A stretch of DNA of 64,000 bases from an uncultured Bartonella sp. (GTDB lineage: Bacteria; Pseudomonadota; Alphaproteobacteria; Rhizobiales; Rhizobiaceae). The position numbers and the translations under genes were made by a program. The stretch is from positions 35,619-99,618 of the forward strand of contig CAMLON010000004.1 in the NCBI GenBank assembly GCA_946481695.1, written 5' to 3'. Below the pieces are notes generated by a model. That model saw only the letters and a list, made by a program, of their open reading frames with translations, was not told the origin of the DNA and made no database searches. Shown here piece after piece: positions 30,247-36,238 of this stretch (the stretch's first letter is position 1; each line of letters opens with the position of its first letter).

Positions 30247-30283
30247 AGAATGAGATTTAATGATAGAAAACAGGGGAATTCCG

Positions 30284-31468
30284 ATGAGTAATGAACACCT
30301 TTCGCCAGACGCGAAAAAAATTCTTCAAACCATGGCATCCTATGTGCCGGAAATGGAAGCTGTGCGCCACGATTTGCATGCCCATCCAGAGACAGCTTAT
30401 GAAGAGCATAGAACGGCAAAAGTTATTGCCGATCTTTTGAAAAAATGGGGTTATGAAGTTACAACAGGCCTTGGCAAGACCGGTGTTGTCGGGCGCTTGA
30501 AAGTTGGCGATGGCAAAAAATCCATTGGTTTGCGTGCCGATTTTGATGCTTTGCCGATTACAGAAATGACCAATCTTGAATATTCCAGTTGTCATGAAGG
30601 CAAAATGCATGCTTGTGGTCATGACGGCCACACAACCATGTTGTTAACGGCCGCACGTTATTTTGCCGAAACGAAGAATTTCAACGGGACACTCAACCTC
30701 ATTTTCCAGCCGGCAGAAGAAGGTTTTGCCGGTGCAAAAGCAATGATCGACGATGGCCTTTTTGAAAAATTCCCGTGTGATGCCGTTTTTGGTATGCACA
30801 ACTGGCCGGGGTCTCCAACCGGCAAAATTTCTGTTAATACAGGGGCATTCATGCCTTCAAGCGACACTGTCAAAATCAAAGTGATTGGCAAGGGCGGCCA
30901 TGGTGCTGTTCCGGATAAGGCAATTGATCCGATAGCAGCAAGTGCTGCGATCATTTCAAGCCTGCAAACGATTGTCTCGCGAAATGTGCCACCGCTTGAA
31001 ACAGCCGTTGTCACTGTTGGCAGCTTTCATGCAGGGTTTGCCGCAAATGTTATTCCCGATAGTGCGGAAATGTTGCTGACCGTGCGTTGCTTTAGTCCGG
31101 ACGTAAGGGATTTACTGCAATCGCGTATCGAAAGTCTCGCCAAGTTACAGGCGGAAAGTTTTGGTGCAACCGCTGAAGTTGATTATCAACGTTCATATCC
31201 TGTTCTGGTCAACCACGAAGCAGAGACGGCATTTGCTGTTGATGTTGCGGCAAAAGTTTTCGGGCGCGACCATGTTGATGACAATATGACGAAACCATCG
31301 GGAAGTGAAGACTTTGCCTTTATGTTGGAAAAAGTGCCAGGGTCCTATGTTGTCATCGGAAATGGAGATAGTGCACCTTTGCATAGTCCCAATTACAATT
31401 TCAACGATGAATTGCTGCCTCTTGGTGGTTGTTATTGGGTTTCATTGGCTGAAACATATTTAAAATGA
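30284..31468 (+). CDS. M20-family amidohydrolase (hippurate hydrolase/N-acyl-L-amino acid hydrolase type), first of three
   Basis: An M20D metallo-amidohydrolase of 394 residues, of the group that cleaves N-acyl or benzoyl amides of amino acids. The start at 30284 follows AGGGGAA. The conserved metal-binding core is MHACGHDGHTTMLLTAARYF near residues 108-127 and FQPAEEGFAGAKAMIDDGLF near 142-161. The dimerisation insert has GKGGHGAVPDKAIDPIAASA near 204, and SGSEDFAFMLEKVPGSYVVIGNG lies near 350. There is no signal peptide, so it is cytoplasmic. It has an extra N-terminal stretch compared with the next two copies and is the most divergent of the three. Confidence 0.9.
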   Translation: MSNEHLSPDAKKILQTMASYVPEMEAVRHDLHAHPETAYEEHRTAKVIADLLKKWGYEVTTGLGKTGVVGRLKVGDGKKSIGLRADFDALPITEMTNLEYSSCHEGKMHACGHDGHTTMLLTAARYFAETKNFNGTLNLIFQPAEEGFAGAKAMIDDGLFEKFPCDAVFGMHNWPGSPTGKISVNTGAFMPSSDTVKIKVIGKGGHGAVPDKAIDPIAASAAIISSLQTIVSRNVPPLETAVVTVGSFHAGFAANVIPDSAEMLLTVRCFSPDVRDLLQSRIESLAKLQAESFGATAEVDYQRSYPVLVNHEAETAFAVDVAAKVFGRDHVDDNMTKPSGSEDFAFMLEKVPGSYVVIGNGDSAPLHSPNYNFNDELLPLGGCYWVSLAETYLK

Positions 31469-31517: not shown

Positions 31518-32681
31518 ATGAAACATATTCGCGAACACATTGAGAAAACCATTGATGAAATGGTGGCAATCCGCCACCAAATTCACGAAAACCCTGAAAT
31601 GGGCTTTAACGAGCATAAAACCGGCGATAAAGTAGCGAGCCTGCTTGAAAGTTGGGGCTTTGACGTTGTGCGGGGTGTCGGTAAAACCGGCATTGTTGGC
31701 ACATTGAAAGTCGGTAATGGCAAAAAGGTCATCGGTATACGTGCCGACATGGACGCCCTTCCGATAGAAGAGGAAACGAATCTGCCTTATGCGAGTAAAA
31801 ATGCAGGTGTCATGCATGCTTGCGGTCATGACGGGCATACAACCATTCTTCTGACTGCCGCCCGTTATCTTGCCGAAACCAGGAATTTTGATGGCACAGT
31901 TCGCGTTATTTTCCAGCCGGCTGAAGAAAGTCTTGGCGGCGGCAAGAAAATGATTGATGACGGATTGTTTGAAAAATTTCCATGCGACCGGATTTACGGC
32001 CTGCATAACTGGCCGGGCTTTCCTGCCGGAACATTGCGTTTCACCAAGGGGCCGATGATGGCCTCTGTTGATACCGCTTATATTACAGTTCGCGGTAAAG
32101 GTGGTCACGGGGCACGGCCGGAAACAACAATTGATCCGATTGTTGCAGCTTCGTCTATCGTTATGGCCTTGCAAACCATCGTTTCCCGTAATGTCCCACC
32201 GCTTGAGGCCGCACTTATCACCGTCGGTATGTTCAAGGGTGGCAGTGTTTCCAATGTCATCCCAGAAGAAGTCAAGATGGAGCTGACGATCCGCGCATTT
32301 TCACCTGAAGTCAGAAAATTGTTACAGGATCGGATTTGTAAACTCGCCAAATCGCAGGCCGAAAGCTATGGTGCCGAAGCCATTATCAATTATGAACGTG
32401 GCTATCCTGTTACTGTGAATGATGCCGAATCGATCGATTTTGCGCTGGACGTCGCGAAACAGATTGTCGGCGATAAAAATGTCGTCGAAAATGCCGAGCC
32501 GCTAACTCCGAGTGAAGACTTTTCCTATATGCTGGAGAAAGTTCCGGGTGCTTATATCATTATGGGTAATGGCGACAGTACAGGCCTCCATACTCCCCAA
32601 TACAATTTCAACGATGATGGTATTGCTGTAGGAGCAACCCTGTGGGGTGCGCTGGTTGAAAAATATCTCGCCAAAGCTTGA
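31518..32681 (+). CDS. M20-family amidohydrolase, second of three
   Basis: A 387-residue M20D amidohydrolase paralogous to its neighbours. The metal site is MHACGHDGHTTILLTAARYL (about residues 97-116) and FQPAEESLGGGKKMIDDGLF follows. The lid insert reads GKGGHGARPETTIDPIVAAS, and TPSEDFSYMLEKVPGAYIIMGNG lies near the C-terminus. The sequence is closer to the third copy than to the first (for example both have LAETRNFDGTV and ARPET). It lies 49 bases after the first hydrolase, apparently in the same transcript, which ends at the hairpin at 32776-32821. Substrate is unknown. Confidence 0.9.
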   Translation: MKHIREHIEKTIDEMVAIRHQIHENPEMGFNEHKTGDKVASLLESWGFDVVRGVGKTGIVGTLKVGNGKKVIGIRADMDALPIEEETNLPYASKNAGVMHACGHDGHTTILLTAARYLAETRNFDGTVRVIFQPAEESLGGGKKMIDDGLFEKFPCDRIYGLHNWPGFPAGTLRFTKGPMMASVDTAYITVRGKGGHGARPETTIDPIVAASSIVMALQTIVSRNVPPLEAALITVGMFKGGSVSNVIPEEVKMELTIRAFSPEVRKLLQDRICKLAKSQAESYGAEAIINYERGYPVTVNDAESIDFALDVAKQIVGDKNVVENAEPLTPSEDFSYMLEKVPGAYIIMGNGDSTGLHTPQYNFNDDGIAVGATLWGALVEKYLAKA

Positions 32682-33024: not shown

Positions 33025-34194
33025 ATGACTGAAAAAACAATCGAAAATTTGATTCTCTCCTATTTGCCGGAAATGACAGCTTTTCGACATACTATTCATG
33101 AAAATCCGGAATTGTCGGGAAAGGAAACGGCAACATCGGCTCGTGTCGGAGAACTTCTCGAACAATATGGTTATAAAGTCACACGTCACGTCGGTGGGAA
33201 CGGTATTGTCGCGTCATTGAAAAATGGCAATGGGCGAAAGTCCATCGGCATCAGAGCCGATATGGACGCTTTGCCGATAAGGGAAGAAACAAACCTCGAA
33301 TATGCCAGCAAAAATGAAGGTGTGATGCATGCTTGTGGCCATGACGGGCATACAACGACACTTCTTACAGCCGCGCGCGCTTTAGCCGAAACAAGAAATT
33401 TTGACGGAACAGTGCATCTTATTTTTCAACCGGCCGAAGAAATCGGTGCCGGTGCAATGGCTATGATTAAAGACGGATTGTTTGAAAGATTTCCTTGTGA
33501 TGCGGTTTATGGGCTACATAATTGGCCGGGATTGGAGCAAGGGAAAATCCAATTTACCAAAAATGCAATGATGGCCTCTGTCGATTCCGTAACAATTGTC
33601 GTTTATGGAAAGGGTGGTCATGGAGCCCGCCCTGAAACTGCAATCGACCCGATCATTGTAGCGTCTTCAATCGTCATGGCATTGCAAACGATTGTTTCCC
33701 GAAATATTCCGCCACTCCAATCAGCCATTATATCGACCGGCTCGATACATGGTGGTGAAGCATTCAATATCATTCCGGATAGTGTGACAATTTCACTAAC
33801 GGTGCGAAGTTTCTCGGCAGATATTCAAAATCTTGTTGAAGACCGGATCAAAAAAATCGTTGAAGCGCAGGCGCAAAGTTTCGGAGCGCGCGCTTCTGTG
33901 CAATATGACCGGCTGGTTCCGGCGCTGGTTAATCATTCTGAATACAGCGATTTTGCTCTCGATGTCGCAAAACAGAGATTGGGAGCTGATAAAATCGTCC
34001 AGAATGAAATACCAACCACTGTAAGCGAGGATTTCGCCTTTATGCTACAAGCCCGTCCGGGAGCATTTTTCTTTCTCGGCAATGGCGACAGTGCAAGCCT
34101 TCATAGCCCTCACTATAATTTTGACGATCGCAATCTGGTGGATGGAGCAATTTTCTGGTGTGCACTTGTGGAAGCAGTTTTAAAACAGAATTAA
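33025..34194 (+). CDS. M20-family amidohydrolase, third of three
   Basis: A 389-residue M20D amidohydrolase, closest to the second copy. The metal site is MHACGHDGHTTTLLTAARAL and then FQPAEEIGAGAMAMIKDGLF. The lid region has YGKGGHGARPETAIDPIIVA, and TTVSEDFAFMLQARPGAFFFLGNG lies near the end. The GGGAAAG before the ATG is a good ribosome binding site. A terminator and about 200 bases separate it from the second copy, so regulation may differ. The three copies probably arose by tandem duplication and may now handle different acyl or amino-acid parts. Confidence 0.9.
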   Translation: MTEKTIENLILSYLPEMTAFRHTIHENPELSGKETATSARVGELLEQYGYKVTRHVGGNGIVASLKNGNGRKSIGIRADMDALPIREETNLEYASKNEGVMHACGHDGHTTTLLTAARALAETRNFDGTVHLIFQPAEEIGAGAMAMIKDGLFERFPCDAVYGLHNWPGLEQGKIQFTKNAMMASVDSVTIVVYGKGGHGARPETAIDPIIVASSIVMALQTIVSRNIPPLQSAIISTGSIHGGEAFNIIPDSVTISLTVRSFSADIQNLVEDRIKKIVEAQAQSFGARASVQYDRLVPALVNHSEYSDFALDVAKQRLGADKIVQNEIPTTVSEDFAFMLQARPGAFFFLGNGDSASLHSPHYNFDDRNLVDGAIFWCALVEAVLKQN

Positions 34195-34311: not shown

Positions 34312-35022
34312 ATGAAAAAATCATGCCCCTCTTTGACTCGCCGCACTTTCCTTGTCGGAAGCGGAACAGCTTTTATCGGGGTCTTGAGTGGCTGCACAAG
34401 CAGCGGAATTTTGGGAGATGGTTATAGTAATATGACCACCGGAGCAATCCCGCGCCCCCCGATCGGAATTGATAAAGGTTTTACAACGCCCGACAAAATG
34501 TATGCGGCCGTTCATGAAGGTCCTTATACGCTTGCCGCCATACCTTATGATAAAGTTCCAAAACAATTTCTACGGCAGATTGTACCCAATCCGACAGGCG
34601 AACCACCCGGTACAATTGTTGTGAGTCTGAAAGACCATTTTCTTTATTTCATCCAGCCTGACGGCGATGCTTTGCGCTATGGTGTCGGTATTGGTGCAGC
34701 CGGTTTCCAATGGTCGGGGCGTGCCAATGTCCAGTTTAAACGTGAATGGCCGCGCTGGACCCCGCCTGCTGAAATGATTGGTCGAAAACCCGAACTTGTC
34801 GAATATCGTAATGGTATGGAACCGGGGCCGACCAACCCGCTTGGTGCGCGCGCGCTTTATATTTATCAAAACGGGCGCGATACGGGATATAGAATCCATG
34901 GTTCACCGGAATGGTGGTCCATCGGGCAATCAATGTCATCCGGTTGTATCAGGCTGATGAATCAGGATATTATCGACCTCTACAATCGGGTTCCGGTTGG
35001 AACACCGATTGTAGTAGGTTAG
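34312..35022 (+). CDS. L,D-transpeptidase (YkuD domain), Tat-type lipoprotein
   Basis: YkuD enzymes form 3-3 peptidoglycan cross-links or attach proteins to peptidoglycan with a catalytic cysteine. The 236-residue protein starts at 34312. Earlier in-frame codons lack signal-like sequence. The N-terminus has twin arginines then a hydrophobic stretch and lipobox (LTRRTFLVGSGTAFIGVLSGC), so export as a Tat lipoprotein is plausible. The YkuD domain covers about residues 96-235 with IVVSLKDHFLYFI. The active-site block is YRIHGSPEWWSIGQ followed by SSGCIRLMNQDIIDLY, with catalytic His and Cys present. The structured RNA locus follows immediately. Confidence 0.93.
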   Translation: MKKSCPSLTRRTFLVGSGTAFIGVLSGCTSSGILGDGYSNMTTGAIPRPPIGIDKGFTTPDKMYAAVHEGPYTLAAIPYDKVPKQFLRQIVPNPTGEPPGTIVVSLKDHFLYFIQPDGDALRYGVGIGAAGFQWSGRANVQFKREWPRWTPPAEMIGRKPELVEYRNGMEPGPTNPLGARALYIYQNGRDTGYRIHGSPEWWSIGQSMSSGCIRLMNQDIIDLYNRVPVGTPIVVG

Positions 35023-35024
35023 TC

Positions 35025-35146
35025 CTCATTATATGGGAGGAGGCGTATAATGAGAAGAAAGGGGTGCCCGACTAGACAAGCGGGGGCAACTCTATCGGGC
35101 ACCTTGGGGGATACCAGGTTTCGTCCTGGTGCTCACTAAACGAGTG
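35025..35146 (+). ncRNA. Structured RNA locus of unknown family, four consecutive stem-loops
   Basis: Four hairpins lie in 122 bases between the YkuD gene and the MliC-like gene: CTCATTATA/TATAATGAG (35025-35033 with 35046-35054), GGTGCCCGA/TCGGGCACC (35063-35071 with 35095-35103), ACCAGG/CCTGGT (35113-35118 with 35125-35130) and CACT/AGTG (35134-35137 with 35143-35146). The first loop holds GGGAGGAGG, a near-perfect Shine-Dalgarno sequence. On the other strand that loop reads CCTCCTCCC, the anti-Shine-Dalgarno motif seen in alphaproteobacterial small RNA families such as cuckoo and alpha-r14. The active strand cannot be decided by eye. No T-run terminator was seen on either side. Confidence 0.55.
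35050..35139 (+). CDS. Possible small protein or leader peptide, 29 residues, with start codon inside a hairpin
   Basis: An ATG at 35050 lies six bases after GGGAGGAGG, so it has one of the strongest ribosome binding sites in the window. The frame gives 29 residues beginning MRRKGCPTRQAG and ending FRPGAH before TAA. It is basic and glycine-rich, without membrane segment or known domain. The ribosome binding site is in the loop and the ATG in the 3' arm of the first hairpin, so translation would depend on opening that stem. The same bases build the next two hairpins, so the coding reading may be fortuitous and the RNA structure the real feature. Confidence 0.35.
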   Translation: MRRKGCPTRQAGATLSGTLGDTRFRPGAH

Positions 35147-35198
35147 GCCGAATATAAAGTTCCAAAAAATTTTGATTTCATTCAAAAGGGCTTGAAGA

Positions 35199-35561
35199 AT
35201 GTTGAAAAAGACTTTCCTTATGACATTTATCCTGGCTGCTCTTTATGGCTTTGCGGCCAATGCACAAGCTTCTTCAGTGCGTAATCAAACCTATATTTGT
35301 GAACGTGGTGTGGCGTTGCAGGCGATTTTTATCAAAGATAAAGATGATTCTTATGCGGTTATTTTTGTTGATGGAAAATTGGTAGCAATGCATGAAGATG
35401 TCAAAGGGCCGGAAAGGCTTTTTATTGCTGTTGACGATCAGGATAATTATCGTTTCCATATAAAGGGGAACGACGCAAGTCTCACCTATAAAGATAACGA
35501 CCAGTCAAAGGCAGAAAAAGTCGTTTTACAGTCCTGTCAGGCCGATATAGCGGAGGATTAA
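35199..35561 (+). CDS. Secreted MliC/PliC-like protein, possible lysozyme inhibitor
   Basis: A 120-residue protein with a clean signal peptide (MLKKTFLMTFILAALYGFAA then NAQA, cleavage near residue 24). The mature part resembles the MliC domain: two cysteines (in TYICERG near 33 and LQSCQAD near 113) that would form a disulfide, YAVIFVDGKLVAM, and SLTYKDND. MliC/PliC proteins block C-type lysozymes of animal hosts in the periplasm. Assignment is from pattern and therefore moderate. The stop overlaps the tenA start by one base (TAATG), so the two are co-translated although one product is exported and the other cytoplasmic. Confidence 0.65.
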   Translation: MLKKTFLMTFILAALYGFAANAQASSVRNQTYICERGVALQAIFIKDKDDSYAVIFVDGKLVAMHEDVKGPERLFIAVDDQDNYRFHIKGNDASLTYKDNDQSKAEKVVLQSCQADIAED

Positions 35562-36238
35562 TGGAAAAACCCGATTTTGAACGAGGTCCTTTTGGAAAGT
35601 TGCGGATGAAGGCTGGCGAGCTGTGGCAGGCTTATGTTGGCCATTCTTTTGTCAATCAATTGGCAGCGGGAACACTGGCCGAGAAATGTTTCAGAAAATT
35701 TTTGACGCAGGACTATTTGTTTCTGGTTCATTTTTCCCGCGGTTATGCGCTTCTCGCGGCAAAATCGACAAATATTGCAGATATCAGGGAAGCACTTGAC
35801 GGTCTCAAATCCATTATTGAAGAAATGCCGCTTCATGTCGCTTATGCCAAAAAATGGGGAATTTCCGAACAGGAAATGAGTAGAGCAACCGAGGCATTGG
35901 AAACAATTGCCTATACGCGCTACGTTCTCGATGTCGGATATGCCGGCGACCGGCTTGATTTGATGGCCGCTCTATTGCCCTGCGTTGCCGGTTATGCCGA
36001 AGTCGGCTTGCGGCTTGCAGGTTCCAAAACCACTGTCTTTAATGGCAATCCCTATTCGGAATGGATTAAAAATTACGAAAGCGAAGAATATATCAAAGGG
36101 GTGATTGCCTTTATTGATAGTTTCAACAAGCTTGCGGAAAAATATGAAGGGGAAGTGCGTTTTCAACGTTTGAGCGAAATCTTCAACACGGCTACGCGTC
36201 TCGAAACCGAATTCTGGCAAATGGGGCTTGATGCGTAA
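35561..36238 (+). CDS. tenA: TenA-family protein (aminopyrimidine aminohydrolase/thiaminase II)
   Basis: TenA hydrolyses aminomethyl-pyrimidine (thiamin breakdown product) for thiamin salvage, and also has thiaminase II activity. The 225-residue all-helical protein has LWQAYVGHSFVNQLAAGTL near residue 20, FRKFLTQDYLFLVHFSRGYA near 44 with the substrate Asp, a cysteine in LLPCVAGYAEVG near 145 at the place of the catalytic nucleophile, and a Glu-containing ETEFWQMGL at the C-terminus, where the acid residue sits in TenA. No other thiamin gene lies here. It could instead serve a salvage role using imported pyrimidine. Confidence 0.88.
   Translation: MEKPDFERGPFGKLRMKAGELWQAYVGHSFVNQLAAGTLAEKCFRKFLTQDYLFLVHFSRGYALLAAKSTNIADIREALDGLKSIIEEMPLHVAYAKKWGISEQEMSRATEALETIAYTRYVLDVGYAGDRLDLMAALLPCVAGYAEVGLRLAGSKTTVFNGNPYSEWIKNYESEEYIKGVIAFIDSFNKLAEKYEGEVRFQRLSEIFNTATRLETEFWQMGLDA

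Follow-up and report, generated by a model that had tools for sequence, protein, structure and literature searches.

The spacer at positions 35025 to 35146 of the Bartonella window (the whole 64,000-nucleotide stretch of DNA that was analyzed) probably contains the gene for a trans-acting small RNA (sRNA) on the minus strand, which would be under sigma-EcfG control, would resemble GsrN and ReC64 in its logic, and would carry an added, clade-specific hairpin of the cuckoo type. The spacer is bounded by an L,D-transpeptidase (LDT; YkuD) gene convergent with the sRNA (34312 to 35022, plus strand; PF03734, E 2.5e-25) and by an MliC-like gene that points away from the putative promoter of the sRNA (35199 to 35561, plus strand; PF09864, 21.9 bits, just under the cut-off of 22), which is followed by a gene of the TenA family (35561 to 36238, plus strand; PF03070, E 5.3e-50). 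An initial annotation had offered several readings of this spacer, including a translational switch, a leader for the downstream genes, a small peptide gene, and, as its third option, an sRNA on the opposite strand that presents CCTCCTCCC in a loop. Comparison with relatives supports the sRNA and disfavors the switch, the leader, and the peptide, as well as the family to which the RNA had been likened.

The spacer folds strongly on the plus strand (z -6.4) and on the minus strand (z -6.0), and none of 200 dinucleotide shuffles folded as well in either case; a strong fold on both strands is expected for strong inverted repeats. Read along the minus strand, the locus begins with a short 5' hairpin (ACCAGG/CCTGGT, 35113 to 35130), which is followed by a second, terminator-like hairpin (GGTGCCCGA/TCGGGCACC, 35063 to 35103) and by a third, clade-specific hairpin of 11 pairs (35025 to 35054) with CCTCCTCCC in its loop (35035 to 35043), which we infer to belong to the same RNA. 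The loop of the second hairpin holds a core, TGCCCCCGCTTG (35077 to 35088, minus strand), that is invariant in all 12 aligned rows and is the likely recognition element. Four consecutive stems had been claimed for the spacer. Three of them are sound, whereas the fourth (CACTAAACGAGTG, about 35134 to 35146) is missing from the plus-strand optimum, forms 4 pairs on the minus strand, and, judged by eye, is not kept among the aligned relatives; the AACG within it is complementary to CGTT, a conserved element of the putative promoter. The minus-strand tail after the second hairpin is TTTTTTCTTTT or TTTTTTATTTT in three loci (L037, L038, and L086) and the weaker CCTTTCTTCT in the window, and no comparable U-run follows this hairpin on the plus strand. 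Terminator scans, whose loop limit of 3 to 8 excludes hairpin 2, listed nothing at the hairpins.

Compensatory changes in relatives indicate that the 5' and second hairpins, counted as the third and second stems in the plus-strand numbering of the initial annotation, are real. The alignment used for covariation comprised 10 rows, the window and nine other loci, with near-identical loci (L035, L053, and others) omitted and B. tamiae used for the second hairpin only. All 144 cells of the two main helices were paired on the minus strand, both sides had changed in 5 of the 15 pairs, and there were 14 double-change cells versus 4.6 in shuffles. None of 500 shuffles matched the percentage paired, the number of double-change cells, or the covariation score, and pairing was destroyed when the helix partners were slid. 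Two measures were less favorable: the count of pairs with double changes was reached by 17 of the 500 shuffles, and the number of pair types was reached by all 500. Nine cells among the 15 counted pairs were G-U; read on the plus strand, each of them would be an A-C mismatch. Excluded from the count were the inner pairs of hairpin 2, which are partly broken, with several cells unpaired; four of their cells are G-U on the minus strand, and one is C-A, for which the plus strand would give G-U. Taken together, the wobble cells and the U-run in L037, L038, and L086 make the minus strand the most likely RNA strand.

Ahead of the 5' hairpin, the minus strand carries a putative sigma-EcfG promoter (35139 to 35163) composed of GGAAC (35159 to 35163), a 16-base spacer, and CGTT (35139 to 35142). 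This GGAAC-N16-CGTT arrangement precedes the 5' hairpin exactly in 11 of the 12 aligned rows, with CATT in B. tamiae. Across the 12 rows, eight of the nine core bases never vary and the ninth differs in a single row, versus 2 invariant bases among the 16 of the promoter spacer, where 4 are the same in at least 11 rows (Fisher p 3.4e-4 for core versus spacer invariance). The C-rich loop of the second hairpin lies 50 to 53 bases from CGTT, versus 80 bases in B. tamiae, in which the 5' part of the locus deviates. The motif corresponds to that published for EcfG1 of Rhizobium etli (PMC3892343). It is not enriched genome-wide, since each of the five genomes searched held fewer matches to it than to its backwards control (35 versus 95 in genome G001), and the window contains 2 matches versus about 0.9 expected. 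Taken by itself, the pattern is no proof; only its conservation and position argue for a promoter here. The gene for NepR was present in all eight genomes tested, and EcfG- and PhyR-like frames, recognized by eye, lie beside it in G001 and G004. General-stress regulation in Bartonella is discussed in PMC5387305. Beyond the nepR/ecfG/phyR region of G001, another perfect GGAAC-N16-CGTT (L171 8045; G001:C1:2622044) precedes a small, secreted-looking frame of 118 amino acids, and a similar frame occurs in B. tamiae (L172 7039 to 7365).

Covariance model R1, built on this RNA, found a match at one place each in 14 of 71 Bartonella genomes, with E values from 4e-15 to 2e-7. Most of the 14 supplied R1 rows or are near-identical to those that did, and the count shows the distribution of the RNA rather than its independent discovery. 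The matched genomes are those of B. choladocola, B. apis, B. apihabitans, Bartonella sp. M0177, uncultured Bartonella assemblies, G008, G085, and B. tamiae. The exact loop core (UGCCCCCGCUUG) is present in all 14, and the loop-core 12-mer is also found in two more genomes that have no R1 match. B. choladocola is a bee-gut symbiont, and strain BBC0122 (L031) has a spacer identical to that of the window; G001 shares 60% of the window's sampled 31-letter words and is 100% identical over 183 bases around the spacer. Strict filters were used for both the genus-wide and the order-wide R1 searches. The latter, covering 297 genomes, returned no convincing relative in the 296 besides G001, and its weak matches (8 places in 7 genomes besides G001, E 0.06 to 0.33) had no EcfG-like promoter. 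No close orthologue of the LDT gene was found in 14 Bartonella genomes tested that lack the RNA, in which the LDT is only 48 to 54% identical, and no such RNA was seen by eye within 200 bases past the LDT gene in the loci outside Bartonella among L040 to L090, which included Brucella, Ochrobactrum, and Phyllobacterium. Exact 17-base matches to the query (positions 66 to 82) in many genomes were rejected as coincidence; in the five loci inspected (L016, L018, L020, L022, and L030) they fall in what we take to be the variable arm of a tRNA-Ser gene.

On the minus strand, the loop of the third hairpin is CCUCCUCCC, an anti-SD motif known from the hairpin loops of the ar14/cuckoo RNAs (PMC3927594). 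An exact 26-base match to this hairpin occurs in 9 of the 71 genomes, all of them among the 14 R1-positive ones. The finding that the initial annotation had named as a refutation, relatives lacking the stems and the GGAGGAGG loop, was thus half borne out: 5 of the 14 lack the exact third hairpin, but the same 5 keep the other two. Where seven rows could be compared, 34 of 35 columns of the third hairpin are identical, and the third codon positions of the neighboring LDT gene show 66 to 70% identity to the window in five rows. The hairpin varies too little for its strand to be read from substitutions. It is possible, though somewhat unlikely, that hairpin 3 is separate from the two-hairpin sRNA and serves as a stabilizer of the 3' end of the LDT mRNA, as a promoter, or as a palindrome acting at the DNA level (an operator). 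Its start 2 bases past the LDT stop codon, its patchy exact presence among the sRNA genomes, the absence of a terminal U-run, and a sigma-70-like match on the minus strand of one arm (10/12, with 0.7 expected in the region) are all compatible with such a role; however, its loop is conserved as fully as its stem, which a stabilizer would not need, and the loop carries the anti-SD motif of the ar14/CcsR RNAs, which these same genomes also encode.

The presence of that motif raises the question of whether the sRNA itself belongs, as a genuine member that has diverged, to the ar14/cuckoo/CcsR group, a stress-linked sRNA family (PMC3927594), as the initial annotation had suggested. Like the members of this family (RF02344 and RF02791), the locus has the CCUCCUCCC anti-SD motif in a hairpin loop, on a stem unlike others, as is described for the family. 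Membership is nevertheless quite unlikely. Rfam 15 at the gathering score gave no match in the 64-kb window; neither RF02344 (ar14) nor RF02791 (CcsR1) matched the locus at the gathering score or at E 5, and the only matches at E 5, to two human lncRNAs, were dismissed as chance. The method does detect ar14 elsewhere: the positive control scored 87.2 bits at G001 234637, and ar14 passes its cut-off away from this locus in 14 of the 71 genomes, the same 14 that match R1. Moreover, there is one CCUCCUCCC-type hairpin here, versus several in ar14/cuckoo, it is exact in 9 of the 14 genomes, and the conserved core of the sRNA is a different loop. The third hairpin is therefore a single cuckoo-like module rather than a member of the ar14 family. 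The clear ar14/cuckoo RNA of G001 (L190 1481 to 1598; G001:C1:234637-234754, plus strand) is followed, about 0.7 kb downstream, by another LDT-like frame (L190 2302 to 2922, named by eye), and a second ar14 match, under the cut-off, is located at G001:C1:2800501-2800610.

The sRNA with its EcfG-type promoter has closer parallels, by description rather than by sequence, among the RNAs of the alphaproteobacterial general stress response (GSR). GsrN of Caulobacter crescentus is driven by the EcfG-type sigma factor of that response and uses an exposed C-rich loop to pair with the G-rich leader of katG, and the account of its conservation reports BLASTn matches in Caulobacteraceae only (PMC5869019). 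The locus described here likewise combines a putative EcfG-type promoter with a C-rich loop, but this loop is in the second, terminator-like hairpin and not at the 5' end. A typical GsrN gene adjoins the GSR locus, although not in C. crescentus, whereas in G001 the sRNA is found at 0.08 Mb and nepR at 2.62 Mb. ReC64 of Rhizobium etli is an 88-nt RNA with an EcfG1 consensus promoter, a mapped 5' end, and EcfG1-dependent expression (PMC3892343). The predicted short RNA, with its putative EcfG-type promoter, resembles ReC64 and other rhizobial GsrN-like RNAs but is set apart from ReC64 by position, since ReC64 lies beside phyR-tcrY and the sRNA lies between the LDT and MliC/TenA genes. The Brt RNAs of Bartonella henselae are also restricted to Bartonella, but they are described as multicopy RNAs of 194 to 203 nt located upstream of trp regulator genes (PMC5387305), in contrast to the single R1 match per genome at a different location. 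Searches of the open-access literature found no described stress sRNA of bee-associated Bartonella.

The alternative that the hairpins form a plus-strand leader or translational switch for the MliC-like and tenA genes is very unlikely. The hairpins do lie upstream of the MliC-like gene and fold on the plus strand too, and the order LDT, RNA, MliC, TenA is kept in 9 of the 12 loci examined (the duplicates L174 and L177, which repeat the genomes of L037 and L038, were omitted). However, tblastn found no MliC-like gene between the RNA and TenA in L037, L038, and L086, all of which keep the sRNA promoter and hairpins, and a leader would hardly outlive its gene. The nine counted wobble cells favor the minus strand, and the U-run and the promoter motif point the opposite way from a leader. 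On the other side of the LDT gene, the window contains three tandem paralogous genes between 30260 and 34194 (30260 to 31468, 31518 to 32681, and 33025 to 34194), whose 300-base blocks are 70 to 74% identical; the third, the only member scanned, is an M20-family peptidase.

A sequestered ribosome binding site and start codon had also been proposed, and the elements exist on the plus strand, with GGGAGGAGG at 35035 to 35043 (1 match in the window versus 0.18 expected) and an ATG at 35050, but they are accounted for by the palindrome, since the complement of an anti-SD loop is necessarily an SD sequence and the palindromic arm supplies the ATG. A 29-codon peptide gene at 35050 to 35139 on the plus strand, with its ribosome site held in the hairpin loop, can therefore be set aside as extremely improbable: AGGAGG stands at a good distance from the ATG and 29 codons are open as claimed, but 6 of the 16 rows lack the ATG site (among the 16, L175 and L177 come from the same genomes as L034 and L038), and the rows that have it encode 29, 46, 18, or 28 codons with residues that differ after the first few.

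Under the preferred reading of a sigma-EcfG-controlled sRNA, the PhyR-NepR-EcfG general stress response would release the sigma factor, and an RNA of about 75 to 115 nt would be transcribed from the minus strand, with its 5' end a few bases beyond the promoter at 35139 to 35163. Comparison establishes that the locus is conserved, that its helices covary, that the wobble pairs fit the minus strand, and that the promoter-like bases and the loop core are kept; from this we infer transcription, its EcfG dependence, its start and end, and the pairing with targets. The short hairpin would come first in this RNA and the terminator-like hairpin, with UGCCCCCGCUUG exposed, second; B. apis, B. choladocola, and B. 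apihabitans form a group in which a third hairpin exposing CCUCCUCCC would follow. Where the third hairpin is present, the U-run after the second is weak, and read-through followed by processing of the 3' end is assumed. Most likely, the C-rich loops would pair with G-rich stretches of target mRNAs, including Shine-Dalgarno regions, and would thereby alter how these mRNAs are translated or how stable they are under stress. The precedents suggest that recognition is the likely role of the invariant UGCCCCCGCUUG loop and that CCUCCUCCC is an anti-SD loop added to it. A tentative evolutionary scenario, which we regard as doubtful but worth stating, is that this is a new family of GSR sRNAs in B. 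tamiae and the bee lineage and that the B. apis group weakened the terminator and gained a cuckoo-type anti-SD hairpin by read-through, a case of module capture. If so, one stress-induced RNA would combine two loops, a C-rich one for specific recognition and one that blocks ribosome sites broadly. Genomes with and without the anti-SD hairpin offer a natural comparison for studying the possible gain of a pairing module by an sRNA. Because the RNA is compact and conserved and comes with a clear promoter hypothesis, posttranscriptional control in the general stress response of these bee symbionts becomes directly testable.

Candidate targets of the loop core were sought as exact copies of its complement, GCGGGGGC, near start codons in three genomes. 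The complement occurred at 94 places (96 readings, some repeated in overlapping loci), with 58 occurrences versus 68 for the control in G001, in which it is not enriched, 19 versus 15 in G007, and 17 versus 8 in G004. One near-start site, some 50 bases inside an open frame, was common to G001 and G007; the gene is O-succinylhomoserine sulfhydrylase-like (NCBIfam TIGR01325). It was dropped as a conserved target because only 7 of the 14 RNA-bearing genomes have the site in exact form, and no conserved target of the loop core was found among the exact GCGGGGGC sites. The sulfhydrylase-like gene itself (L308 to L321) was detected at E 1e-60 in all 14 RNA-bearing Bartonella genomes, and a test of 11 that lack the RNA found it in none, a co-occurrence that probably reflects shared ancestry or gene loss and not a functional link. 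Several intergenic GCGGGGGC matches look like tRNA genes or, on the other strand, like cobalamin riboswitches. Blocks of ACAGTTGCGGGGGCAGC between genes are shared by three Bartonella genomes (near the middle of L250, L251, L252, L266, L268, and L305), and their other strand resembles the core of a cobalamin riboswitch.
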